From a virus, in the IMG/VR virus record IMGVR_UViG_3300046542_000271, positions 48,422-112,421 of that record: 64,000 nucleotides of DNA; one strand, given 5' to 3'. The position numbers and the translations under genes were made by a program. Under the pieces are notes generated by a model that was not told the DNA's origin, made no database searches, and worked only from the letters and a program-made list of their open reading frames with translations. Of this stretch, positions 21,398 to 33,609 are shown piece after piece (positions within the stretch are counted from its first letter, which is position 1; every line of letters begins with the position of its first letter).

Positions 21398-22021
21398 TTA
21401 CTGAGGCTGGGACTTGATGTAGCGAATGACTTCCCGTACTGGGTCGTCTTCTACCAGCGTGGTGAGGACAACGTCCTTTGGAGCAGTGTCTGGACCGTAG
21501 GAGAACTCCAGGGTCCGAGACGTGAGCGTGAGCGGAGTAGTGCTGCTGGCATTGAATGCTGCCACCAACTCCATGTCACGGATGTTGTACTTGCGACCAA
21601 TGGTCTTGGTGAACTCCAACGCCTGCAACGCGATCGACGTCTTCTGCTCATCACTGAGCATCTCGATGTCGTCTTCCAGCATGTAGTACGTCTGGAAGGT
21701 GTTCTTGGCGTAATACTCGACCATGATCGGCTTGGTGCAATCCCCTTTGGAGATGCAGTCAAACCAATCGCTATTGTCAGGTGCCTTCAGGATCGTCCCT
21801 GCGGCGTACTGAGCTGGAGTGGTCGGCATGGTAGCGTAGCGCATCACCTGGAACTCAAGACGGCTGACACCGCCTGGTGGACCACTACAGATCCATCGAG
21901 CGGCATGAATGCGAGCGAAGCCAGTGTAACGACCTCGCAACATCATCAAACCACGGTCCACCCCGACGTAGGGGTTGGTGTGCTGCACGTTGGTGGGGCT
22001 TTCCGGGATTGGGTGCGGCAT
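21398..22021 (-). CDS. Unknown protein between fibres and endolysin
   Basis: This 207-residue protein starts 9 nt after the last small fibre gene. It has a proline- and glycine-rich N-terminus (TNPYVGVDRG), then mixed alpha/beta sequence, and lacks the C-terminal fibre domain of its neighbours. It could be a fibre accessory or virion protein. Not recognised. Confidence 0.55.
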   Translation of the reverse strand: MPHPIPESPTNVQHTNPYVGVDRGLMMLRGRYTGFARIHAARWICSGPPGGVSRLEFQVMRYATMPTTPAQYAAGTILKAPDNSDWFDCISKGDCTKPIMVEYYAKNTFQTYYMLEDDIEMLSDEQKTSIALQALEFTKTIGRKYNIRDMELVAAFNASSTTPLTLTSRTLEFSYGPDTAPKDVVLTTLVEDDPVREVIRYIKSQPQ

Positions 22022-22030
22022 TGTTCTTCC

Positions 22031-22771
22031 TTACAGAGGATTCCAGGTAGCTGGGAGTTTGGTCGGTGCATCGATAGTACCAGCCGATACAGGGATGACC
22101 GAACCACGCGGGATGAGGCTTGGACGGAAGGTGCTGATCCGGACAACAGGAGCCACCGTGATCGACGCAACGCCCGTACCGTTAGTGACCACGGTGCCGA
22201 TGTACATGATCGTGGCGGACTCAGGAGGAGAATCCGTACGCACCTGGTACAGTACCTGACCAAACCGCAGCTTCACGAACAGGTAGAACGTCTTGTTGGC
22301 TGGCGATGGATCTGCCGAAGCCAAGTCGAGCGTAGCAATCGGAACGTTGTACGGAACGCCAGACATCACGATCGGTACGACCTTGTTACAGGTAATACGA
22401 AACGCACTGCTTGTCCAGATAGTCGCGACGTTAACAGCCCGACTATCAAGCCATCCGTAGTGAGACAGCGGTACGATGGATCGTGGGATCTTCGTGGTGA
22501 GTAGCCCATCCACCATAGGGGCGGAGTACGAACCGATACTGACCATGGACTCCCCGTGTGGGTTGTCCTTCCTGGCAGCGTGAGTCGCGAGTGCGTCCCG
22601 CGCTGCTTGTAGGAGTTTGGCGACAGTCCAGTCGACCTTGAGGATACCGGCATCGCCAGAGCGAACAGCCAGGGGACGAATCCGCACTTTAAGGATGCGG
22701 ATCATCTCGTTACGGTATTTCAAGAACGACTTGGTCCGGAAGAGCTTGAGAGCTGAAATAGGACCAGCCAT
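22031..22771 (-). CDS. Short tail-fibre-like protein (cassette B, second)
   Basis: This 246-residue protein has the layout common to the short fibres here: a basic helical N-terminus, an HAARKDNPHGE motif at about 64-74, then a beta-rich half ending in a domain shared by six proteins (MYIGTVVTNGT, RISTFRP, RGSVIPVSAG, final LPATWNPL). The H...NPHG motif is common in phage tail fibres. The gene is separated from its neighbours by about 10 nt. It corresponds by position to the 27064 gene in cassette A. Receptor binding is the likely role. Confidence 0.7.
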   Translation of the reverse strand: MAGPISALKLFRTKSFLKYRNEMIRILKVRIRPLAVRSGDAGILKVDWTVAKLLQAARDALATHAARKDNPHGESMVSIGSYSAPMVDGLLTTKIPRSIVPLSHYGWLDSRAVNVATIWTSSAFRITCNKVVPIVMSGVPYNVPIATLDLASADPSPANKTFYLFVKLRFGQVLYQVRTDSPPESATIMYIGTVVTNGTGVASITVAPVVRISTFRPSLIPRGSVIPVSAGTIDAPTKLPATWNPL

Positions 22772-22780
22772 GATGCCTCC

Positions 22781-23467
22781 TTATTGGAACCAAGTGGACG
22801 GAAGAGTACCCTGAGCAGCCTGAGTACCAGTCGAGTGCGGGATACCTTGACCACGCGGTGCATCAGTGATCGGGAAGTAGCCAATACGTGCACCCTTCTC
22901 CATCACGACACTCCACGTACTACCTGACTTGGTAGCGACGCCAATCGCGAACTCGTACTGACCTTCGCTAGCATCCGCGTCCAGGGAGAACGTCCCAACA
23001 ACCGCCGGAGGCTCTCCCGTGAACGTGACCTTGACGTAGTACTTAGACCCAGCGCCCAACGCCAATGCCGCTCCAGGTACCACGACAGTACGACCGTTGA
23101 AGATCAGGGTACTGGCAGGTACGTTGAGGTTACTGCCTGCGATGGTTGCAGCGATCAATGGGACCTTGCTGATCGGGAAGGCATCCTTGGGGAAGTACAC
23201 CGCCGACTTCGCGTCGTACGTCGATTTGGCCATGCCACCCAGTTGAGCCAAGGTTTCGCCGTGAGAGCTAGGCTTGGCGGTCTCGTGGGTGGTAACCTCG
23301 CCCTTGATGATGGCGATGATATCTGCCAGCGAGAGTCCGGTGAGTTTGTCTGTGTCTCCAGACTCTCTGACGCGACCCGCCTTCGACTTGATCAGCCGAA
23401 AGATCTGAGTCTTGTACTTGCCGAACTTCAAGCTGAGAGCTGCTAACATCTCTGCGCTTGTGGCCAT
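22781..23467 (-). CDS. Short tail-fibre-like protein (cassette B, first)
   Basis: This 228-residue protein carries a Ser-His-Gly-Glu version of the NPHG motif at about residue 69 and the shared beta-rich C-terminal domain, ending GTLPSTWFQ. Its middle strands are less like the others than those of the other short fibres. The gene lies 3 nt after the long fibre, as in cassette A. It is probably an alternative receptor-binding tip or a co-fibre. Confidence 0.7.
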   Translation of the reverse strand: MATSAEMLAALSLKFGKYKTQIFRLIKSKAGRVRESGDTDKLTGLSLADIIAIIKGEVTTHETAKPSSHGETLAQLGGMAKSTYDAKSAVYFPKDAFPISKVPLIAATIAGSNLNVPASTLIFNGRTVVVPGAALALGAGSKYYVKVTFTGEPPAVVGTFSLDADASEGQYEFAIGVATKSGSTWSVVMEKGARIGYFPITDAPRGQGIPHSTGTQAAQGTLPSTWFQ

Positions 23468-23470
23468 GAG

Positions 23471-26383
23471 TTATTTCCAGTTGAGGCGACCGTAGGAGTT
23501 TGGAGTACCCGAGGTCAACGAGAGAGACGAACCGCGATCTTCTGGCGACAACATGTAACCATCTACCGCCACATGCTTCTGAATGTTGATCACACTCAGG
23601 CCTGTACTGATCGTGGTGAAGTAGCCCAGGTACAACGCAGGTGCCGCAGGTGCCACGGTGGTGGTGTCGTTGATCTTGTATTGCAGTTCATCACCCACTC
23701 GCACCAACCACACATGGAACGTCTTATTCCCATCGGTCGCTGGATTGAGATTGTAGTTGAACGGCTTCACTGGTTTGTAGTAACCGTCGAGCATCGCCGG
23801 TGTTTCATCGGAGAAGTAAACAGTCCACGCACTCACCACGCGTTGCGAGATCATGATGATGCCGTAGTTAGGATCCTTGGCCCGAGTCACGAGTTCAGGG
23901 ACGCTCAACGTCGTGAGTTGGTCAGTCGCACACACCGCAGCCACCATCTTCGATCCACAGTCAACCTCACCGTAGATGAATTCCGACGACAGGACCCAAT
24001 ACAGACCACGACTAGGTAAGTTCACCCAACCGCCCGGTGCCGTACCATTCCAGTAGTCCCAGTGCGTCAGTCCGACGTTGGCGAAGCCGCCACCTGGGGT
24101 GTACTGCATAGTCAGCATGACGTGACCGTTGTTACCCACGACGCCGTAGTAGCTACTGTCAGAGTAACCAATCACGAATCCGCCGTTCACGCGACGGATA
24201 GCCACCTGACCAGCATCCTGTTCAGGAACCAGGCCCATCAGAGTGTTGCCACTGTTGGCCCTGGTTAGCATCATCCCAGCGCCCGTGATCGACGCACCCG
24301 TTACCGCCTGACGACTACCCGAGATGTTCACCGGATAGCAGAACACGTAAAGCGCCCGGTCGGTGTGGATGTACGTACCGATCACGAATGGCGGCAAGTC
24401 GGTATAGACCTGCGGGATGATGAGCTCAAACGCCATCATCGGGACGCCAGGCGGAATGGTCGACAAGGCGTAACCGCGAGCTGACATATCACCCAAGATC
24501 TGCGCATGTAGGCTTGCCATCACAGCCTGAGGAACAGTGATCGATCCGGACAGTTGTAGGTTACGATCCACGTTCGCTGCCCGCGACGTCTCGGCAGGCC
24601 ACCAATTCGAGAACCGCGCCTGAGATACTTTCGACACGCCAGGCGACGCTTCGTTCAGGAAACGTCTGAAGTTGGTTGGCGTTACGCCGAGTTCGTTATA
24701 GGAAGTCCGATCGGATGTCGGAGCGAACCCTTTAAACGCATAGTTACCCGTCACCGACGAATACTGGAACGTTGGGTTGCCTTGAAGTACCGACCGTACG
24801 TAGAAGTTATCCACCACGCCATTATAACGACCGTAGTTCAGACAGGTGACCACATCGTCACCCACGTTACTCACGGCGCGGTAAGACGTTGTCAGCGCAC
24901 TACCAAAGCGACCTACCGGATATACTCGAGAACCTGCCTGATAGTCGTGCTCACCCGCCAACACTTCCATCGGGTCGAGCGTTGTGTCGTAGGCGAACCG
25001 CACCATGCTGAGGTTAATCGACTGGTACGAGGTCGATGTCCACAACCACACCTGGTTATAGATGTTGGAATAGATCGACGACGTGTCCTGACCGTAATGC
25101 CAATCTTGGTGAGAGGTTTTGGCGAACGTACGCAAGCAGGCCGATTCCGACACATCCCAGCCAGCCGCACCGTAATTGATGGACGCCTTCCAGTTGTGGT
25201 ACGGCGACACATCGATCTGCTTGTTCTCGTTGAACTCGTACTTGAAGTACCATTGATAGCCGGTGATCTGGGTCGCATTATCGCCGGGATAGTACTGCAC
25301 GTAGTGTGCGAAGAAAATGCCGGTGTTGCCGTTGTCACGAGTGAGGGCGGACGGCGTGTTGGAGCCGTTGGTTGCCCAGACCGTGGTGTTTGGCTTGCCG
25401 GTGTTGTTCGAAGAGCTGATGACGTCGTCAAACAGGATGATGTCATCTCGGATCACAGTACCTGCAACACCGCGATTGATGGTCCAACCCGTGATGCGAG
25501 TAGCGCCGTTGAAGACGCCGGTGATCAGGTCGTTCTTGTTGAGCCGCCATACACGGTGACCCATCTTACCTTCCTGATGGATGTCGTGCAGGATGTAGAC
25601 GTAGTTACCCTTCACGAACCCAAACGGGATGTGGTACAGGGCCGGCATCGGACCCTTGACCTCGAGGAAGTTGCCATTCGGGACGAAGACACCGGTGTGC
25701 TTGGTTTGGTCCATCGTGTTGTTGGTCAACGAGATGAAGTAACCTGTGTGCGCACCAGTGACTGAGTCCTTCATGATACCCGTGATGACATCTTGGGTAC
25801 CGTTGAGGATCGCCTTGGCTCGCATCCCGGCTGGGAAGTAAGCGGGACGATACTCAACGTTGGTCATGACCAAGTTGTTCATGTCCGTTTCCGTCATGGC
25901 GTTACGCAGGTACGAGTAGTACACACCTGCGCTGTCACCATCGGTACCCGAACGGAGGATCATCAGCGTACCGTTATCCTCCATCATCATCGCCACGTTG
26001 TTGTACGGCGTGGTGTTACTGCCCGATTCGTAACTACCGGTCACCGCAGGTGGTAGAAACTCGTTGTCACCGTAGAAACTCAGCGGAACGCCACCATTGT
26101 TGTCAGCCAGCATGTCGAACTTGGCTTCGTACTCGATAGCCGAGTAACTACCCACATCACCTGGTTTGAGGTTGTGGACGTTGATCCCAACCTTCTGGGT
26201 GTGCTTAGTGACCTCAGCTACTGCCAATGCCGAGATCTCAGCGGGAGTCTTACCGCCGAGCTTAACTGCGGTGTCCGCGTAGTCCGCAAAATCCGCAGGT
26301 TTATCGAGAGCCTTGATCAACTCCACTTTGAAGTCTTTCAGCTGGACTTTCAGAGCAGCCAGGGCTGCATCATTGTTTGCCAT
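23471..26383 (-). CDS. Long tail fibre (cassette B)
   Basis: This 970-residue fibre is a paralogue of the 28486 gene. Both share an N-terminal helix, an H...(N)xH motif near residue 65, a LPPxVTGS(Y/F)E segment near 108, RxGTDGxxxGV(Y/F)Y, and an IKGFAP(T/S)xDR motif around residue 560. The last 150 residues match the C-terminal domain of the short fibres (WTVYFSDETPAMLDGYYKP to GRLNWK). The central 700 residues are beta-rich with many Gly, Asn and Tyr, as in a receptor-binding fibre. No enzymatic motif is visible. It is preceded by an adaptor-like gene. Confidence 0.75.
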   Translation of the reverse strand: MANNDAALAALKVQLKDFKVELIKALDKPADFADYADTAVKLGGKTPAEISALAVAEVTKHTQKVGINVHNLKPGDVGSYSAIEYEAKFDMLADNNGGVPLSFYGDNEFLPPAVTGSYESGSNTTPYNNVAMMMEDNGTLMILRSGTDGDSAGVYYSYLRNAMTETDMNNLVMTNVEYRPAYFPAGMRAKAILNGTQDVITGIMKDSVTGAHTGYFISLTNNTMDQTKHTGVFVPNGNFLEVKGPMPALYHIPFGFVKGNYVYILHDIHQEGKMGHRVWRLNKNDLITGVFNGATRITGWTINRGVAGTVIRDDIILFDDVISSSNNTGKPNTTVWATNGSNTPSALTRDNGNTGIFFAHYVQYYPGDNATQITGYQWYFKYEFNENKQIDVSPYHNWKASINYGAAGWDVSESACLRTFAKTSHQDWHYGQDTSSIYSNIYNQVWLWTSTSYQSINLSMVRFAYDTTLDPMEVLAGEHDYQAGSRVYPVGRFGSALTTSYRAVSNVGDDVVTCLNYGRYNGVVDNFYVRSVLQGNPTFQYSSVTGNYAFKGFAPTSDRTSYNELGVTPTNFRRFLNEASPGVSKVSQARFSNWWPAETSRAANVDRNLQLSGSITVPQAVMASLHAQILGDMSARGYALSTIPPGVPMMAFELIIPQVYTDLPPFVIGTYIHTDRALYVFCYPVNISGSRQAVTGASITGAGMMLTRANSGNTLMGLVPEQDAGQVAIRRVNGGFVIGYSDSSYYGVVGNNGHVMLTMQYTPGGGFANVGLTHWDYWNGTAPGGWVNLPSRGLYWVLSSEFIYGEVDCGSKMVAAVCATDQLTTLSVPELVTRAKDPNYGIIMISQRVVSAWTVYFSDETPAMLDGYYKPVKPFNYNLNPATDGNKTFHVWLVRVGDELQYKINDTTTVAPAAPALYLGYFTTISTGLSVINIQKHVAVDGYMLSPEDRGSSLSLTSGTPNSYGRLNWK

Positions 26384-26406
26384 GACCGGTAGTTCCTATC
26401 GAAAGA

Positions 26407-27048
26407 TTACAGAAGCGCGAGTTCGGACGCTGCGATGTCAAACTCATTCGCGATGCCCAGGCAGAACGCATCGTAGTCCGCAAACTTCGCACGAATCTGG
26501 TCGAGCAACAGTTGACGACTGGCAGTGTCACCCTCACGGATGGCTGCTGCGATGTCATAGTTGGACTCGATCAGATATTTGAGACCATATAAGTCGTAGG
26601 CACTGTGCAAGTGTGGTGTCGGCACAAATTGCGACGGGATACCGATGATGTCACCCCAGGCAATAACCCGGTTATCATCCGTCAGATCCTCGATTGCCTG
26701 CAAGATAGCGTACAGGGAATACGAGAACTCACCACCGACCATTTGCGCACTGATGGAGACCTGAGTGCCCACAGTCGGGTTGATGATCCGTACCGCGGTG
26801 TAGACCGACTGACCAGTGGCGAGGGAAGCCTCACGGTAGTGGTGGACCAACACGTAGTCGGTAACCGGAACCAGGACCTTGCCAGAGACGACGTCCTTGA
26901 TGATGGCGGTAGAACCGAAGAACGGACCGTAGTCCGCTGCGAACAAACGACCACGCAAAGCGCCGATCGTGTGCACTTCGTTCGTCACCTTGTTGGTTGG
27001 GCTTGTCCCCAGGAGGTCCAACGGGTATTTGAAGATGGTACCAGCCAT
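26407..27048 (-). CDS. Fibre adaptor / baseplate attachment protein (cassette B)
   Basis: This 213-residue protein resembles the 31414 gene: both start with a YP(L/V)DLxG....NKV motif and share a late SNYDIAAAIRE. The first 130 residues follow a pattern known in fibre-to-baseplate adaptors (a GPFF segment, a VTDYVLVHHYREA segment and a VGGEFSYSLY stretch). It probably links the long fibre to the baseplate. It sits directly upstream of the fibre. Confidence 0.65.
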   Translation of the reverse strand: MAGTIFKYPLDLLGTSPTNKVTNEVHTIGALRGRLFAADYGPFFGSTAIIKDVVSGKVLVPVTDYVLVHHYREASLATGQSVYTAVRIINPTVGTQVSISAQMVGGEFSYSLYAILQAIEDLTDDNRVIAWGDIIGIPSQFVPTPHLHSAYDLYGLKYLIESNYDIAAAIREGDTASRQLLLDQIRAKFADYDAFCLGIANEFDIAASELALL

Positions 27049-27063
27049 TGTAATGACCTCTAA

Positions 27064-27762
27064 TTAGTTGAACCAGCCAGCAGCCAGCTTCGAAGGATCG
27101 CTCGCATTACCAGTTGCTACCGGGATAGCAGAACCGATTGGCGAGGTGCTGACCCGATACGTGTCAATCCGCGTCACCCGAGAGATCGACAATGTCGTCA
27201 CTGCCGTGGCACTGGTCACCACCCGACCGATGTACATCCGGGTAGCGGTCTCAGCCAAGTCCTGGGTGCTGAAGTAGTAGCTGATCGCACTACCGTTCCA
27301 ACGCAGGTACACGTAGTAGGTCGTGCTCGGCGACAGATCGATACTGAACGGAGCCACCTTACGGCTGTACCCGTTCATCATGGCCGCTACATCAGCCGTG
27401 AATGTCACGGTCAACCCAGTGGACGACACCGGGATAGCGGCGTTAGTCAACTCACCGTAGCGAGAGATCGGCAGAATACCCTCAGGGATGCGTCCGGCGA
27501 TGGAGTTGTCCACCGTCGGCTTGATCGTACCCAGCAGCTGGATGGCCGTTGTGCCGTGAGGGTTTTCTTTATTGTTGATGTGGAGGTTAGCTTCAGCCTT
27601 GGCTTCGTTGCCAAGCGAAGTCGCCGTGTATTCGCCAAGTCGTAAGGTGTTGTCGGCCACATCAGCCCCCTCCGCCTTACGTGCAAGTAGGGTCAACAAG
27701 TGACCCTTCATGCGATTGAACTCGGCCGCCATGTTGTCTACCAAAATGGTGATGGCACTCAT
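27064..27762 (-). CDS. Short tail-fibre-like protein (cassette A, second)
   Basis: This 232-residue protein has a basic N-terminal helix, the HINNKENPHGT motif near residue 62 and the shared C-terminal domain (RMYIGRVVTSAT, RIDTYRVST, GSAIPVATG, LAAGWFN). It matches the 22031 gene in position. A receptor-binding role is likely. Confidence 0.75.
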   Translation of the reverse strand: MSAITILVDNMAAEFNRMKGHLLTLLARKAEGADVADNTLRLGEYTATSLGNEAKAEANLHINNKENPHGTTAIQLLGTIKPTVDNSIAGRIPEGILPISRYGELTNAAIPVSSTGLTVTFTADVAAMMNGYSRKVAPFSIDLSPSTTYYVYLRWNGSAISYYFSTQDLAETATRMYIGRVVTSATAVTTLSISRVTRIDTYRVSTSPIGSAIPVATGNASDPSKLAAGWFN

Positions 27763-27774
27763 TACTTGACCTCG

Positions 27775-28482
27775 TTATGGTTTCCAGTCGGCTGGGATAG
27801 TACCAGTCGCGGTTGGTAGACCTGTGGACGATGGGATACCAGCACCCATACCCGACGGCGTCAGACGGAAGTTATCGATCTTACAGAACTTACCGATAGT
27901 ACCGCTGACGATCTGCGTGGCGTTGGTCGTGACCGAACCGATGTACATCCGAGTCGTACTCTCCGACAACCAGACGTCCGACAAGGTAATAGAAGCCAAC
28001 TCGTTAGCGATGGTGACGTAGACGAAAATCGTCTTGTTGGCTGGAGTACCCGTCAATGGAATCGTCTGGCCGGACAGCGAGTAGGACTTACCGCTGATCA
28101 TGAGTGGGATAGTGCCCGTGAACACGATACTCATACCGGTGTACGACACAGCCAACGCCGTGGCACTCAACGCGCCAAACTGACTGAGTGGCAGGAGACC
28201 CACCCGCAACAGCGGGTCAGTGAGATCTGCCAGTTCATTCGGCGTGTACGCATTGAGTTGCTCAGGCGTCAGCGTGTGGGCGTTGTTGGTACGCGCTGCG
28301 TGAGTGTTGATGAGGGTATCCACCGGCGTTTGAATCTGCGCCGGTGTTTGCCCGTTCAACGTGGTAGCGTTTTCAGACGTGGCTGAGGTTGGGGCTTTCC
28401 GAGACAAGAGGCGAACCATCTCGTCCGAGAACTCCTTGATCTCCACCAGCAACGTCGCGATTTTCTCCTGGACCGTTGGCAT
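27775..28482 (-). CDS. Short tail-fibre-like protein (cassette A, first)
   Basis: This 235-residue protein carries an NNAHTLT version of the NPHG motif at about residue 66 and the shared C-terminal domain (RMYIGSVTTNAT, KIDNFRLTP, GAGIPSSTG, IPADWKP). It begins 3 nt after the long fibre stop, as the 22781 gene does in cassette B. A receptor-binding role is likely. Confidence 0.75.
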   Translation of the reverse strand: MPTVQEKIATLLVEIKEFSDEMVRLLSRKAPTSATSENATTLNGQTPAQIQTPVDTLINTHAARTNNAHTLTPEQLNAYTPNELADLTDPLLRVGLLPLSQFGALSATALAVSYTGMSIVFTGTIPLMISGKSYSLSGQTIPLTGTPANKTIFVYVTIANELASITLSDVWLSESTTRMYIGSVTTNATQIVSGTIGKFCKIDNFRLTPSGMGAGIPSSTGLPTATGTIPADWKP

Positions 28483-28485
28483 GTA

Positions 28486-31401
28486 TTAACTCCACTGCAA
28501 CTTGTCGGCGAGACGTGGGAGGCCAGAACTGACCGGGATAGCAGAACCACGGGCCGTCAAGCTGATACGGACGTTACCCAGACGGGTCACCTTCTCAATC
28601 TCGATGGTCGCGATCTGCGTGGCGTTGGTGATGACCTTACCCACGAACATGTTGGTGTTGGACTCAGCCGTCTGGTTAGTAGCCACCACATAGGTCGCCA
28701 CGTTACTGACGATCCGAACGTACACGTAGAACGTCCGGTTAGACGCATCAGCCAAGATCGTCCGCAGGTCCACACTCGATACCGGCAGTGTGTAGTAGTT
28801 CCCGTTGAGCACCACAGGGGTGTCTTCGGAGAAGTACAGGACCCAACCTTCGGCTGCCTTCTGAGAAGCCAAGCACGTCCATTGATCGGTAGGGGCTACA
28901 GTACCGCCAGACCACGCATCGTAGTCCGCCTGTGTCCGACCGATTGGCAGGAAGTTAAGCTTGGTGGTTTCGTCCGAATAGCCCGTCTCGCCGATCGTCC
29001 CCCAATGCAACCCGAACCCCAGAGATGGGTGGGCAATGAAATGCCGTCCCGAGGAGTTCGAATAGTGGTTGAAGGTCCGCATCTTGAAGTCGGAGCTGTG
29101 ATGGAACTCACCTTCCGCCTTGTTGTACGTGAACGCGATGGTTGGGATCGGGTTACCGCCTGGGACCAGGAAGTTTGCCGAGCAAGACGAACCGATCAAC
29201 ACCACATCGCCGTTATCCCACATCGAGCATGCGCCGGAGTACAGGATGTTGGTGGCGTTGTAGGCGATACCACGTCCGATAGCAGCATAGACGACGCGTT
29301 GAGGATAAACCTTACTCACGGTGACGTTGCTGATGTTGTCAGCCGCATCACGCACCACAGCACATTTGGCGATGGTGAAGATCAGGTTCTTCGACGTGTC
29401 CTGCGCTACCATCAGGGCGAACGGAGGAACACCGTTCTGTGTCGGTACCACCAACTCGATCACGTAGAACTCGAGCGGAGCTGCACCCACTTCCACCATC
29501 TTGTCGGAGATCGATTTACCGGTCTTCTGCAAGAGGGCTTCTGTGATGCTGACGTTGGCACCTACTGACAGATCGCCTGCGATGGACTTCTTGCCCGTCA
29601 GACGACTGAGAGTACCCAGACCAGGACTGCCGCAGATAAAGCGCAGACTGGAGCAGAATACACCGCTAGCGTTGACTTCGTTGACTGGAGCCTCGTAGTC
29701 AGCTTGCGCCAACCCCATGTCAGTCAGGAAGCGCCGATCGGCCGAGGGGGCGAAACCTTTGATCTGGCCCCGATAGATCGAATCGTAGATATAGTTGTTG
29801 CCCGTACCTTCCAGCGTGGTCGTCACCAGACCCCGTTGATAAGCACCGGCAGCATTCACGCCATCAGCCATCATGACCAGCTTGGTAGCCGAGACCAGCG
29901 AGGGACTGTGGAAGTTACTCCCCAGCGCTGTACCGAACGACGGACGAACCGCCACGCTACCCTTACTGCTGATAGTGGTGGCGGTGACCTCCAGGTTATC
30001 GAACCGGCTAACGAAGTTGTTCATCTTGCCGATCTGGATGGTCATGTTGTCCACACCGGTCGACACCATCATCCTGAACGCATTACCGTACTCGTCGAAG
30101 CAGTACGTCGACTTCTGCTGGCCAGTGGTCGCGAGCTTGTCATACGTGAGCATGTCGTAGACAGGACCTTCGTACGAGGGTAGATCGCCCGCTTCTCGAA
30201 CGATGCTTTGACCAGCCAACATCGCCGTGTCCAACTTGGCGACCTTGGTCACTGGGTTGTAGGTGAAGCTGAAACCGATCCCCTGGTAGAGCGAGTTACC
30301 GGTGGTCACGCAACGAGACTGACCGTAGACCTTGGTGCGGATCAGGCCAGAGACCTCATCGTACGCCGAGACCATCGTCGGGACGTCCCAATAGAACACC
30401 ACTGCACTCGAGAACGTACCAACCAGCAACACCATTGGGTTATCGGCAGGAAGGTAACTGCCCAGCTTGTTAGCCAGACGAATGCCGTTCATGCCGTTGT
30501 AGTCGATGTTGCCAAAACCCTTGGCATTGATGCCAGTGACTTGGGTCAACGTAACGACCGCGCCGTTTGCAGCGTTCAGCGTAGCCTTCGACATGGTGAA
30601 GACCGACACTTCCCACGGGTTGGCCTGGTTCACTGCCGGTAGACCGTAGAACAGCACGTTGTTACCAGCGAGGATGGCTTCACCGTCTTTACCCATGGCT
30701 TCCGCCGCGGCTTTAGGGATGATACCACCTGTATGCTTCGAATCGTCGAAGGTACCGTTGGACAGAGCTAGGAAGTAATCGCCAGGTACACCAGCTGCAT
30801 CCTGGAGCTGACCGAAGATAACCGACGAGCTCGATGCAAACACCGAATGAGCCGATTGTCCAGCAGGGAACCAGGAAGGACGATAGCGACGTGTGGTCTT
30901 GACCGGCTGGCTGGCACGGATAGCAGCGTTAGGCATGAACGCGTAGAACACGCCGCTCTTCGCCCCGTCCGTACCGTTACGCAGATAAACAGCCGTACCG
31001 TCTTCTTCGATGATGGCCGCACAGGCGTTGCGCAGTTTAGCCGTCGTACCGCCTTCGAAGCTACCTGTCACGCCGGGCGGCAGATAGTTGAGGCTACCAT
31101 AGCGGCAGATCGGTACGATGGCCTTAGGCATCAGCTCAGCTTCGATGGCTTTCCAGTCAGCATCCAAGTGGATACCAACACTCGCAGCCGTATCGTTGTG
31201 AGCGTTACCCGTTTTGATAACGTGTGCTTTGGTCGCTGCTTTCACAGCGGTTGCGAGTTGGGATGCCGTCTTCCCACCAACCATCCCCGAAACATCGGAC
31301 GTGGCGGCAGTCTTACGTTGACCAACTATCAATTCACCGACTTTGGTGAACGTGTTGTTCATTGCCGTTTTCAGGGCGGCGAGGGATGTGGTCACACTCA
31401 T
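28486..31401 (-). CDS. Long tail fibre (cassette A)
   Basis: This 971-residue fibre is a paralogue of the 23471 gene, with the same length and matching motifs across the whole protein. Its C-terminal 150 residues (WVLYFSEDTPVVLNGNYY to LADKLQWS) are again the shared fibre domain. The N-terminal 100 residues contain an HVIKTGNAHND motif. The central region diverges from its paralogue, as expected if the two bind different receptors. The start follows the adaptor stop by 12 nt. Confidence 0.75.
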   Translation of the reverse strand: MSVTTSLAALKTAMNNTFTKVGELIVGQRKTAATSDVSGMVGGKTASQLATAVKAATKAHVIKTGNAHNDTAASVGIHLDADWKAIEAELMPKAIVPICRYGSLNYLPPGVTGSFEGGTTAKLRNACAAIIEEDGTAVYLRNGTDGAKSGVFYAFMPNAAIRASQPVKTTRRYRPSWFPAGQSAHSVFASSSSVIFGQLQDAAGVPGDYFLALSNGTFDDSKHTGGIIPKAAAEAMGKDGEAILAGNNVLFYGLPAVNQANPWEVSVFTMSKATLNAANGAVVTLTQVTGINAKGFGNIDYNGMNGIRLANKLGSYLPADNPMVLLVGTFSSAVVFYWDVPTMVSAYDEVSGLIRTKVYGQSRCVTTGNSLYQGIGFSFTYNPVTKVAKLDTAMLAGQSIVREAGDLPSYEGPVYDMLTYDKLATTGQQKSTYCFDEYGNAFRMMVSTGVDNMTIQIGKMNNFVSRFDNLEVTATTISSKGSVAVRPSFGTALGSNFHSPSLVSATKLVMMADGVNAAGAYQRGLVTTTLEGTGNNYIYDSIYRGQIKGFAPSADRRFLTDMGLAQADYEAPVNEVNASGVFCSSLRFICGSPGLGTLSRLTGKKSIAGDLSVGANVSITEALLQKTGKSISDKMVEVGAAPLEFYVIELVVPTQNGVPPFALMVAQDTSKNLIFTIAKCAVVRDAADNISNVTVSKVYPQRVVYAAIGRGIAYNATNILYSGACSMWDNGDVVLIGSSCSANFLVPGGNPIPTIAFTYNKAEGEFHHSSDFKMRTFNHYSNSSGRHFIAHPSLGFGLHWGTIGETGYSDETTKLNFLPIGRTQADYDAWSGGTVAPTDQWTCLASQKAAEGWVLYFSEDTPVVLNGNYYTLPVSSVDLRTILADASNRTFYVYVRIVSNVATYVVATNQTAESNTNMFVGKVITNATQIATIEIEKVTRLGNVRISLTARGSAIPVSSGLPRLADKLQWS

Positions 31402-31413
31402 GAAGAGAGTCCT

Positions 31414-32235
31414 TTACAGGTTGGAAAGGTCCGTGGCTGCCTGGTTGTACGTGGCAGTCATCGAGTCGATCGTCGTCACGAGGTTAGCGTTAGTGGTATC
31501 AGCACCAACCTGGATAGCCGCCAACTGGTTAGCCGCTGTCGTGTAGGACGTGGTCATCGAATCGATCATGGCGATCAAGTCTTCTTCAGCCGCACCACCG
31601 CCGGTGTCGAGACCTTGCAGGATCGCGTCCATCTCGTCGCGACTGTAATACTCGCTGAACAAGACGGGTGGGTTTTCCAACCAATGATCGGTGCGCTCAC
31701 GGATAGCCGCGGCGATGTCATAGTTGGAGGCGATGACTTCGGCCAGGCCGGTCATGTCGGTAACGTCGTGGGCGTGTTCGATAGGAGGGAATGCGGTCGG
31801 AACCCCACTCACTTCTTCGTACGTCACAGTCCGTGGATCGAGTGCCCGGTTAGAGGCAATTTCCAGCAACTTGGTTTCGTTGAGAGACCAGCTACCGCCG
31901 AGGACTTGGTATTCGGTAATTTCCACGATACCAGACAGTGTCCGGTCCATGAACAGAATACTTTGATAGATACCGCCACGGATACCTTCAGTTTCATAAC
32001 TCGCGCTATGGAACTTATGACCCGGCATCCAGTCCACGCCACGGATCAAAGTCTTGCCCGTGGTGATGTGTTTCAGCTTCAGCGTGTCACGGTAGTACGG
32101 ACCTGCCTTCGTGAGGATGAAATGATAGTCCAGCGGTTCGCCCGGAGGATTCAACGTTTGGCGCTCTTTGAGCACCTTGTTTGTAGCGGCTTGTCCTGTG
32201 AGATCCACAGGGTACAAGTAATCAGTGAGTGCCAT
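31414..32235 (-). CDS. Fibre adaptor / baseplate attachment protein (cassette A)
   Basis: This 273-residue protein shares YPVDLTGxxxxNKV, the GPYY segment, a YQVLGGSWS strand and SNYDIAAAIRE with the 26407 gene. It is 60 residues longer, and the extra C-terminus is a two-fold repeat of the form IDSMTxxYxxAAxxL. It begins the minus-strand fibre operon, with the divergent 32321 gene on the other side. Attachment of the fibre to the baseplate is inferred. Confidence 0.65.
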   Translation of the reverse strand: MALTDYLYPVDLTGQAATNKVLKERQTLNPPGEPLDYHFILTKAGPYYRDTLKLKHITTGKTLIRGVDWMPGHKFHSASYETEGIRGGIYQSILFMDRTLSGIVEITEYQVLGGSWSLNETKLLEIASNRALDPRTVTYEEVSGVPTAFPPIEHAHDVTDMTGLAEVIASNYDIAAAIRERTDHWLENPPVLFSEYYSRDEMDAILQGLDTGGGAAEEDLIAMIDSMTTSYTTAANQLAAIQVGADTTNANLVTTIDSMTATYNQAATDLSNL

Positions 32236-32287
32236 TAATCGTCTCCGGTTCTAATGCGGACATCGCCCGCAACTGGGATGTAACGCA

Positions 32288-32293
32288 TATAAT
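32288..32293 (+). promoter_or_regulatory. Possible -10 element (TATAAT)
   Basis: A perfect TATAAT lies 28 nt before the 32321 start in a divergent intergenic region. No convincing -35 is seen at 17 nt spacing, so it may be a phage-polymerase signal or chance. Confidence 0.3.
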
Positions 32294-32320
32294 TTTTGAT
32301 CGTCCGTACAGGAGTCGAAC

Positions 32321-33577
32321 ATGTTTACGCTTGTAACTGCAATGGCGAGTCTTCGTGGTGCAAACCAACGACTGGTAACGACTGATGTCCGTACCACTTT
32401 GGTCCGGGATCTCATGACGAAGTACAGTCAGTGCATCCTCATTTTGTCCCACCCTTCTATCGATCACCAGGTGAGTCTCGACGTCTCTAAAGTCGCCACC
32501 ATGTTCTACCAATACAGTCCTAACCTGACTACGGTGCAATGGTTGACCGCTATTGGTGATAGTGATGTCCCGTTTGACCTCACCGTGCCCACTGTGGTGA
32601 AGTCGAGTGCCCTTGCTTCGGAAGCTTACGCTGCCGGATACAACGTACAACGCATCCACCCATTGGCCGGTGAAGGCAACCAGTACCCTGATCCAGAACT
32701 GACCCACCTGCGATTGACCCGTCCCGATACCGACTACATGGACGTGTTCAACAACTGCCTGGCCAGTGTCAACGGTCTGCTTCATTTAACTGACGCAGGC
32801 ACTGACGGCTTCCGCATCATTGACGGCGGCAAGAGTGTTAACCTCTCTGGCCGTAATGAAGTCGGCTTGATCAGTTTCAAGAATGTTGGCAAGATCCAGT
32901 GCTACCCAGTGACCGCATCGATGATCACCGGTCGCAAAGGGTTGCCATTGGCTCAAGGCGCTGTACTCACCGCACCTGGTGCTGACTTCAGCAACAAGTA
33001 CGTGATGTTGGTGGTGGGCGGCTTCCTTCACACGGCTGGCAACCAGTACAAGGTCGTGGGTAAGAACTCCGTCATGCTCGAATGGTGGAAGCTGCCTCTG
33101 CATCGTCGGTACAACGATACCCGTAAGCTGATCGACTGGACTCCAGTGACCAAGCTGATGGATCGTAACCTCGAACACACCGGCGCCATTGACCTTAACC
33201 TGATGAACACGGACCCGTGCATCAAAGCATACCTGACGATGAGCAATACCTTCCTCATCGCCGTGGATTCGCCGAACCTGTTCTTCGAGAACGTTCCGGT
33301 AGAACGCACTGGTCTTGCAGGCCGCTACTACAGTTACGTCCCACCCATCTGGCCACTGATCCTGGCGAACGGCTTCTTGCCTCCGTACACCATCCACGGT
33401 AACAACGGGATGTACTGCATGGCGGTGGATGTCAACAACCTGCCGAACTACCTCCACGACACACGCAACGTCATGGACGGTGATGCCTACGAGAACGACG
33501 CCAAGGTGCATGCCCCTAATAAGGAATACGCCAGCGCCTACTTCATGGACATCTTCAACGAACGTTTGAAGTATTGA
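32321..33577 (+). CDS. Virion structural protein, unknown
   Basis: This 418-residue protein is transcribed divergently from the fibre operon and convergently with the PAAR gene. It is mostly beta-rich with many short strands (YVMLVVGGFLHTAG, NSVMLEWW). It has no enzyme motif or membrane span. Its position between fibres and spike suggests a baseplate component. Not recognised. Confidence 0.6.
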   Translation: MFTLVTAMASLRGANQRLVTTDVRTTLVRDLMTKYSQCILILSHPSIDHQVSLDVSKVATMFYQYSPNLTTVQWLTAIGDSDVPFDLTVPTVVKSSALASEAYAAGYNVQRIHPLAGEGNQYPDPELTHLRLTRPDTDYMDVFNNCLASVNGLLHLTDAGTDGFRIIDGGKSVNLSGRNEVGLISFKNVGKIQCYPVTASMITGRKGLPLAQGAVLTAPGADFSNKYVMLVVGGFLHTAGNQYKVVGKNSVMLEWWKLPLHRRYNDTRKLIDWTPVTKLMDRNLEHTGAIDLNLMNTDPCIKAYLTMSNTFLIAVDSPNLFFENVPVERTGLAGRYYSYVPPIWPLILANGFLPPYTIHGNNGMYCMAVDVNNLPNYLHDTRNVMDGDAYENDAKVHAPNKEYASAYFMDIFNERLKY

Positions 33578-33583
33578 GCATAA

Positions 33584-33609
33584 AGAGGCTGGGGACATCC
33601 CCAGCCTCT
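33584..33609. terminator. Bidirectional hairpin before PAAR gene
   Basis: An 11-bp stem (AGAGGCTGGGG with CCCCAGCCTCT) and a short loop is flanked by GCATAA and TATGC. It separates the 32321 gene and the PAAR gene, which converge. Confidence 0.8.

Follow-up and report, generated by a model that had tools for sequence, protein, structure and literature searches.

The window analysed here is a stretch of 64,000 nucleotides, comprising bases 48422-112421 of a 112-kb virus record. It contains eight closely packed minus-strand genes, arranged as two successive sets that each encode an adaptor, a long fibre and two short fibres (A1–A4 and B1–B4, Table 1). A preliminary description had recognised two adjacent four-gene sets in this span (22031-32235), which coincides exactly with gene boundaries, and the gene map bears it out. 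Every gene of the two sets starts with ATG preceded by a purine-rich site, and the intergenic gaps are 3-23 bp. The run continues into two more minus-strand genes. The first of these probably belongs to the fibre operon; its 207-residue product had no match in Pfam or PHROG, and is about 42% identical across relatives regardless of the fibres they carry (92% in L010). The product of the last gene has a weak match to PG_binding_1, under the Pfam cut-off, and its gene tree agrees with the backbone phylogeny. Upstream of A1, the minus-strand ORFs at 32222-32785 and 32786-33598 are probable shadows of a plus-strand gene at 32321-33577; the 418-residue product of the latter has a C-terminus conserved among relatives.

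Table 1. Genes and sequence features of the fibre locus (positions in the window)
Feature	Position	Strand	Remarks
A1, slot A adaptor, 273 aa	31414-32235	-	phiKZ gp131-type N-terminal domain; phrog_2163/phrog_13857; A1-type clade 100/100
SNYDIAAAIRE codons in A1	31696-31728	-	transition from conserved N-domain to exchangeable tail
A1 C-terminal tail, type I helix (..SYTTAANQLAAI / ..TYNQAATDLSNL), two tandem copies	31414-31695	-	
A2, long fibre chain, 971 aa	28486-31401	-	phrog_3573, E 6e-147
A3, short fibre chain, 235 aa	27775-28482	-	N-terminal helix and C-terminal domain 109-234
A4, short fibre chain, 232 aa	27064-27762	-	N-terminal helix like adaptor tail
B1, slot B adaptor, 213 aa	26407-27048	-	phiKZ gp133-135-type N-terminal domain; phrog_2163, E 1e-58; B1-type clade
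SNYDIAAAIRE codons in B1	26533-26565	-	
B1 C-terminal tail, type I (..FDIAASELALL)	26407-26532	-	
B2, long fibre chain, 970 aa	23471-26383	-	phrog_3573, E 8e-85; C-terminal domain 845-970
B3, short fibre chain, 228 aa	22781-23467	-	
B4, short fibre chain, 246 aa	22031-22771	-	phrog_3573, C-terminal part, E 6e-34
Downstream gene, 207 aa, function unassigned	21398-22021	-	kept in relatives, even with different fibres
Final gene of the run, 224 aa	20713-21387	-	peptidoglycan-binding region and baseplate-hub/lysozyme-like domain; phrog_4928, phrog_196

The adaptors match phrog_2163 and phrog_13857, and the long and short fibres match phrog_3573 (residues 52-970 in the case of A2); a Pfam search with the cassette proteins gave no match. 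Judged by sequence, the window adaptors are members of the phiKZ gp131-type family, which they join through an N-terminal domain of about 175 residues, and the long fibres are members of the phrog_3573 family of jumbo-phage fibres. The counterparts in PhiPA3 are gp150 for A1 and gp152-154 for B1, annotated as similar to phiKZ gp131 and gp133-135, respectively. In phrog_7449 (1714 positions), the adaptor matches near the start and the long fibre further along; the two are therefore fused in some phages, a hint that these proteins belong together.

The predicted structure of A1 consists of an N-terminal β-rich domain (core pLDDT ~85-95) followed by poorly placed helices, and a fold search of the PDB with this model returned nothing at E≤0.001. 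The model of A2 (pLDDT 83, pTM 0.75) comprises an N-terminal helix (residues 3-26), a β-rich, propeller-like body and a C-terminal domain (~845-971) that was also identified by HMM. Its top viral match in Foldseek is a structural protein of phage CBB (TM 0.76-0.80), and weak PDB matches were obtained to the phi11 RBP and to glycosidase propellers. A sequence search of the PDB with A2 found only a gp120 match, which was judged to have arisen by chance. The models are of monomers, and docking is beyond their reach.

Relationship between the two sets

The paired proteins are homologous, with BLAST identities of 33% over 180 aa for A1 and B1 (E 1e-27), 33% for A4 and B4 (E 2e-31), and 34% for the N-terminal 235 aa of A2 and B2 (E about 1e-32 to 2e-32); a second alignment of this long-fibre pair gives 22% over 584 aa. 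By segment, A2 and B2 are 23/33/40% identical in residues 1-230, 13-21% in 231-835 and 26% in 836-971. The preliminary description of two fibres of about 970 residues, with the ends kept and the centre diverged, is thus correct. The short fibres correspond to the two ends of the long fibre with the centre missing. For the short fibres, the position-by-position pairing proposed earlier is less clear-cut, as A3 scores higher with A4 (93 bits) than with B3 (52 bits). Among the motifs said to be shared, SNYDIAAAIRE is present in both adaptors, while IKGFAP reads FKGFAP in set B. The comparisons support the existence of two related sets of putative receptor-binding type.

At the DNA level, the sets share one strong match, of 39 bp at 87% (E 8e-8), which lies over the SNYDIAAAIRE codons; the second-best match is 42 bp at 79% (E 5e-4). 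These codons are identical at 30 of 33 nucleotides between A1 and B1, and at 27-32 of 33 among all copies coding for the peptide, including those in different genomes, so that the likeness is explained by codon constraint. Identity between A1 and B1 across the patch is 0.713 within a genome and 0.672 between genomes (permutation p 0.009). Recent recombination at this patch was considered and rejected, since identical peptides from different genomes are equally similar in DNA.

A tree of the adaptors from the window group and ten other jumbo-phage loci is split into A1-type and B1-type clades (100/100), both of which include phages of Erwinia, Serratia, Xanthomonas, Burkholderia and Pseudomonas. 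Constraining A1 and B1 of the window group to one clade is rejected (p-AU 0.0004), and with it a local tandem duplication of the four genes. The long fibre A2 is 36.8% identical to a long fibre of L036, 34.2% to one of L042 and 31.2% to one of L037, compared to 21.6% for B2 of the window. For the long fibres, this is the outcome that the preliminary description had named as refuting its reading.

Single-protein scans of the viral collection returned close relatives only, and the informative ones were returned by alignment-based queries. Both one-copy and two-copy relatives exist, as the preliminary description had envisaged. Set A is complete in 11 of the 11 tabulated contigs that have it and set B in 21 of 21, with no partial sets. 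Set A is absent from L015-L020, L076 and L083, and among the tabulated contigs that extend to the B locus, L066 alone lacks a complete set B. On a backbone tree built from g33881, the adaptor N-domains and g20713, the two-set state requires at least 3 changes, and a single two-set clade is rejected (p-AU 2e-7). The window is nearest to the one-set contigs L015-L017 by backbone (75-88%) and adaptors (71-76%), whereas its fibres are nearest to those of the two-set contigs L012/L013/L032/L033 (B2 ~62%, versus 40% to L015-L017). The trees are in conflict accordingly: g20713 and g33881 place the window with L015-L017, and B2 places it with L012/L013/L032/L033. The swapped groupings are rejected in each case (fibre grouping by g20713, p-AU 7e-41, and by g33881, 4e-55; backbone grouping by B2, 6e-59). 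B1, which is sited between the two fibre blocks, tracks the backbone.

Adaptor tails, cargo and chain number

Conservation among the adaptor N-domains extends to about residue 180; the C-terminal tails vary with the cargo. A long and two short fibres follow the type I tail, a helix with an end such as SYTQAANQLGAL or FRIAANELALL; the type II tail precedes a virion protein of ~597 aa (phrog_11065); and the type III tail precedes a Gly-rich, Gp38-like protein of 273 aa, which matches Pfam GP38 at 28.3 bits in L083 (cut-off 25) and falls under the cut-off in L066. Tail and cargo types correspond across slots and phages, and all three types are found on both adaptor classes. Type I is located on both adaptors in the window, on the A adaptor in L036 and L039, and on the B adaptor in L046. 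The type II tail belongs to the A adaptor in L015-L017 and to the B adaptor in L066; the tail of this L066 B adaptor matches the A-adaptor tails of L015-L017 at 36-45% (E 1e-21 to 1e-26), the respective cargo proteins match at 55-56% over 596 aa, and the L066 B adaptor is not followed by a fibre set. Type III tail and cargo are found with the A adaptor in L066 and L083 and with the B adaptor in L036 and, by inspection, in G002.

When 3,556 ORF ends were scored with a profile of the B1 tail only, the A1 ends from the remaining two-set contigs and from L036 and L039 outranked all other non-B1 ends, with no one-set A1 among the top ranks. The A1 end of the window itself, in which the tail is doubled, lies just below a few unrelated ends. 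The tail profile is most like the N-terminal helix of A4, and the helices of the other chains are not highly ranked. The likeness among type I tails could be due in part to the heptad pattern of a helical stretch of ~20 residues. Fibres with a long N-terminal helix region are found in phages with tail I, while the fibre N-terminus is shorter in SNUABM_54, PhiEaH1, PCH45 and Goslar, and unrelated in 121Q and CBB. As SNUABM_54, PhiEaH1 and Goslar have fibre sets and lack tail I, the rule linking tail to cargo would cover one docking variant only.

The type I tail helix is present as a tandem pair in A1 of the window (IDSMTTSYTTAANQLAAI and IDSMTATYNQAATDLSNL) and as a single copy in relatives. 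PhiPA3 gp151 (L025:11756-12079, 107 aa, phiKZ gp132-like), a neighbour of the gp131-type adaptor, opens with a stretch resembling the N-terminal helix of the fibres and closes with one resembling tail I (AFNDAADRL; rank 17 of 1,986 ends); it could act as a free linker between adaptor and fibre. A protein of 813 aa in L036 (L036:13297-15738), encoded between the type I fibres and B1, consists of type II cargo (~40% over 540 aa) joined to a further region with matches to tail-fibre PHROGs. In L018, a Gly-rich ORF (L018:8355-9206) is found after the slot-A adaptor, which has a tail unlike types I-III, here left unassigned as a fourth type.

Phage fibres are generally homotrimers. The C-terminal domain of the fibres studied here is shared by three neighbouring chains in the window sets, L036, L039, L046, 121Q, CBB, Kaldavass, L040, L041, L045, Agricanvirus and SNUABM_48. 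EL, RisingSun and Miami show a weaker third match, and Goslar has two clear matches and a third short gene. Two such chains are present in L037, L042, L043, SNUABM_54 and PhiEaH1; SPN3US-like and Vibrio phages have one or two. Because the sets hold three chains in most of the jumbo-phage lineages covered and are never partial in the window's group, we tentatively raise the possibility, doubtful as it is, that each set forms an obligate heterotrimer of one long and two short chains, with a common N-terminal helix and C-terminal domain, on three copies of the adaptor. Data from a study of SPN3US (PMC5694885) give 1.08, 1.41 and 1.00 spectra per kDa for the paralogues gp168, gp169 and gp170, and these similar amounts suggest a fit with such an assembly. 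No description of heterotrimeric phage fibres was found in the titles, abstracts and selected passages of the literature covered; if true, the trios would represent a new way of building a phage fibre.

A different distribution of the domains is seen in EL, RisingSun, Agricanvirus and SNUABM_48 (among L090, L089, L027, L087 and L095), where three adaptor domains and three C-terminal domains are spread over four genes, in the order adaptor only, adaptor plus fibre, adaptor plus fibre, and fibre only. The cassette of EL, RisingSun and Agricanvirus looks as if one of three full chains had been split. The CF8 cassette is similar, its fourth gene having no domain match.

Two candidate sockets with exchangeable cargo

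The two adaptor classes, the match between tail and cargo, the occurrence of each type in slot A as well as slot B and the disagreement of fibre and backbone trees, all established by sequence comparison, would be accommodated by a system of two ancient adaptor sockets with matched, exchangeable tail-cargo modules, the same class of module being present in both sockets here. We assign this reading a probability of about 0.62. The N-terminal domain (~175 residues) of each adaptor would fix A1 or B1 to its own baseplate site, the two domains being ancient paralogues of the phiKZ gp131 and gp133-135 type. The attachment of the window adaptors to the baseplate is proposed by analogy with phiKZ gp131, which has been placed at the baseplate periphery, possibly on the fibres (as cited in PMC5105663). 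The short C-terminal tail, a helix in type I, would form a dock for the N-terminal helices of the fibres encoded just downstream, such that tail and cargo act as a single exchangeable unit; physical docking of the fibres on the tail and receptor binding by them are both presumed. These modules would move between phages, with either socket able to take the same type. In the window, both sockets would hold type I cargo, which is why the locus resembles a tandem duplication. We infer that exchange, rather than parallel loss, produced the observed pattern. Specialisation of each copy of the set, as suggested in the preliminary description, is plausible.

An alternative is that the adaptor-fibre cassette was duplicated en bloc before the phiKZ-like phages diversified, and that one slot then had its fibres lost or replaced in most lineages. 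Both adaptor classes are indeed old and usually adjacent. A clade of A2 and B2 is disfavoured yet not rejected (p-AU 0.16 and 0.08 in two trees), B2 may be grouped with the slot-B fibres of L046 (p-AU 0.42), and the short-fibre tree rejects neither A3+B3 (p-AU 0.38) nor A4+B4 (p-AU 0.19); an ancient duplication of the fibres is therefore possible. However, A2 groups with fibres from other phages in the best tree, where B2 has a long stem, the copy number is patchy on the backbone tree, and types II and III are also found in both slots, so that movement from slot to slot occurs anyway. We consider this scenario rather unlikely as the origin of the two sets.

The tails could also be linkers with no docking role, in which case covariation of tail and cargo would reflect their neighbourhood and their transfer as one DNA block. 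The tail adjoins the cargo in most contigs, and linked transfer alone would yield the same match. If the tail is a dock, a tail I adaptor should still be present where the type I fibres are encoded elsewhere in the genome. In three genomes that have fibres and adaptors far apart, this expectation was matched strongly, moderately and weakly in one genome each: the A-type adaptor end ranked 10 in G004, 15 in G001 and 24 (weak) in G002 among 1,986 distinct ends, with a profile that had not been trained on these genomes. Linkage alone would not predict such a match. Furthermore, the type III cargo resembles the Gp38 adhesins, a family that sits on the fibre tip in T-even-type phages. An explanation by linkage alone is, in our judgement, unlikely. 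Lastly, the origin favoured in the preliminary description and suggested by the adjacency, identical order and common motifs of the sets, namely that the four genes were recently duplicated in tandem in this lineage and then specialised, is unsupported and most improbable, as the adaptor paralogy is older than the phage group, A2 is closer to the L036 fibre than to B2, and hardly any DNA similarity between the sets exists outside the 39-bp patch.

The proposed system of two sockets would have a practical use, since jumbo-phage tail fibres are now mostly annotated as hypothetical or merely structural. The last ~20 residues of the adaptor could predict the fibre module in either slot, even when unlinked, allowing systematic annotation of fibres, and the tail-cargo rule would give a concrete and testable account of how jumbo phages change their receptor-binding parts. 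The literature covered, in titles, abstracts and selected passages, yielded no prior description of tail-cargo exchange between phiKZ-type adaptors.

Comparison with known systems

The N-terminal adaptor domain is common to the window and the phiKZ gp131/gp133-135 family, which includes family C (gp168-170) of SPN3US and is YomR-like (phrog_2163). In phiKZ and SPN3US, this domain is mostly fused to large ectodomains, whereas in the window the adaptors are short and free-standing, with the fibres encoded by separate genes after them. SPN3US gp168-170 are reported to be missing from a tailless mutant (PMC5694885). The phrog_3573 fibres of 121Q, CBB, GAP32 and phAPEC6 are homologous long chains that occur in threes, as in the window. 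However, these phages have no phiKZ-type adaptor beside the fibres, and the N-terminus of their fibres is of another type. The A2 homologue of phAPEC6, gp323c, was detected in virions by mass spectrometry (PMC7247149).

The predicted propeller-like body of A2 resembles that of the Staphylococcus phage phi11 RBP (PDB 5efv, Foldseek E 5.5e-6), although the TM-score is only 0.13-0.18, which would indicate a resemblance in fold rather than homology. The likeness of type III cargo to T-even Gp38 (PF05268) extends to a partner that ends in a dedicated tail. This Gp38-like type is found only in relatives (L066, L083 and L036), while the window has type I in both slots.

Conserved attachment domains combined with exchangeable receptor-binding parts are also described for the branched tailspikes of Ackermannviridae (PMC11414711) and for the anchor and branching systems of Klebsiella RBPs (PMC6872550). 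For the tailspikes (CBA120, S117), the former source presents experimental evidence of whole-gene exchange. These systems employ gp10-like XD domains and docking domains within the tailspikes, in contrast to the window, where two ancient adaptors would carry interchangeable modules.
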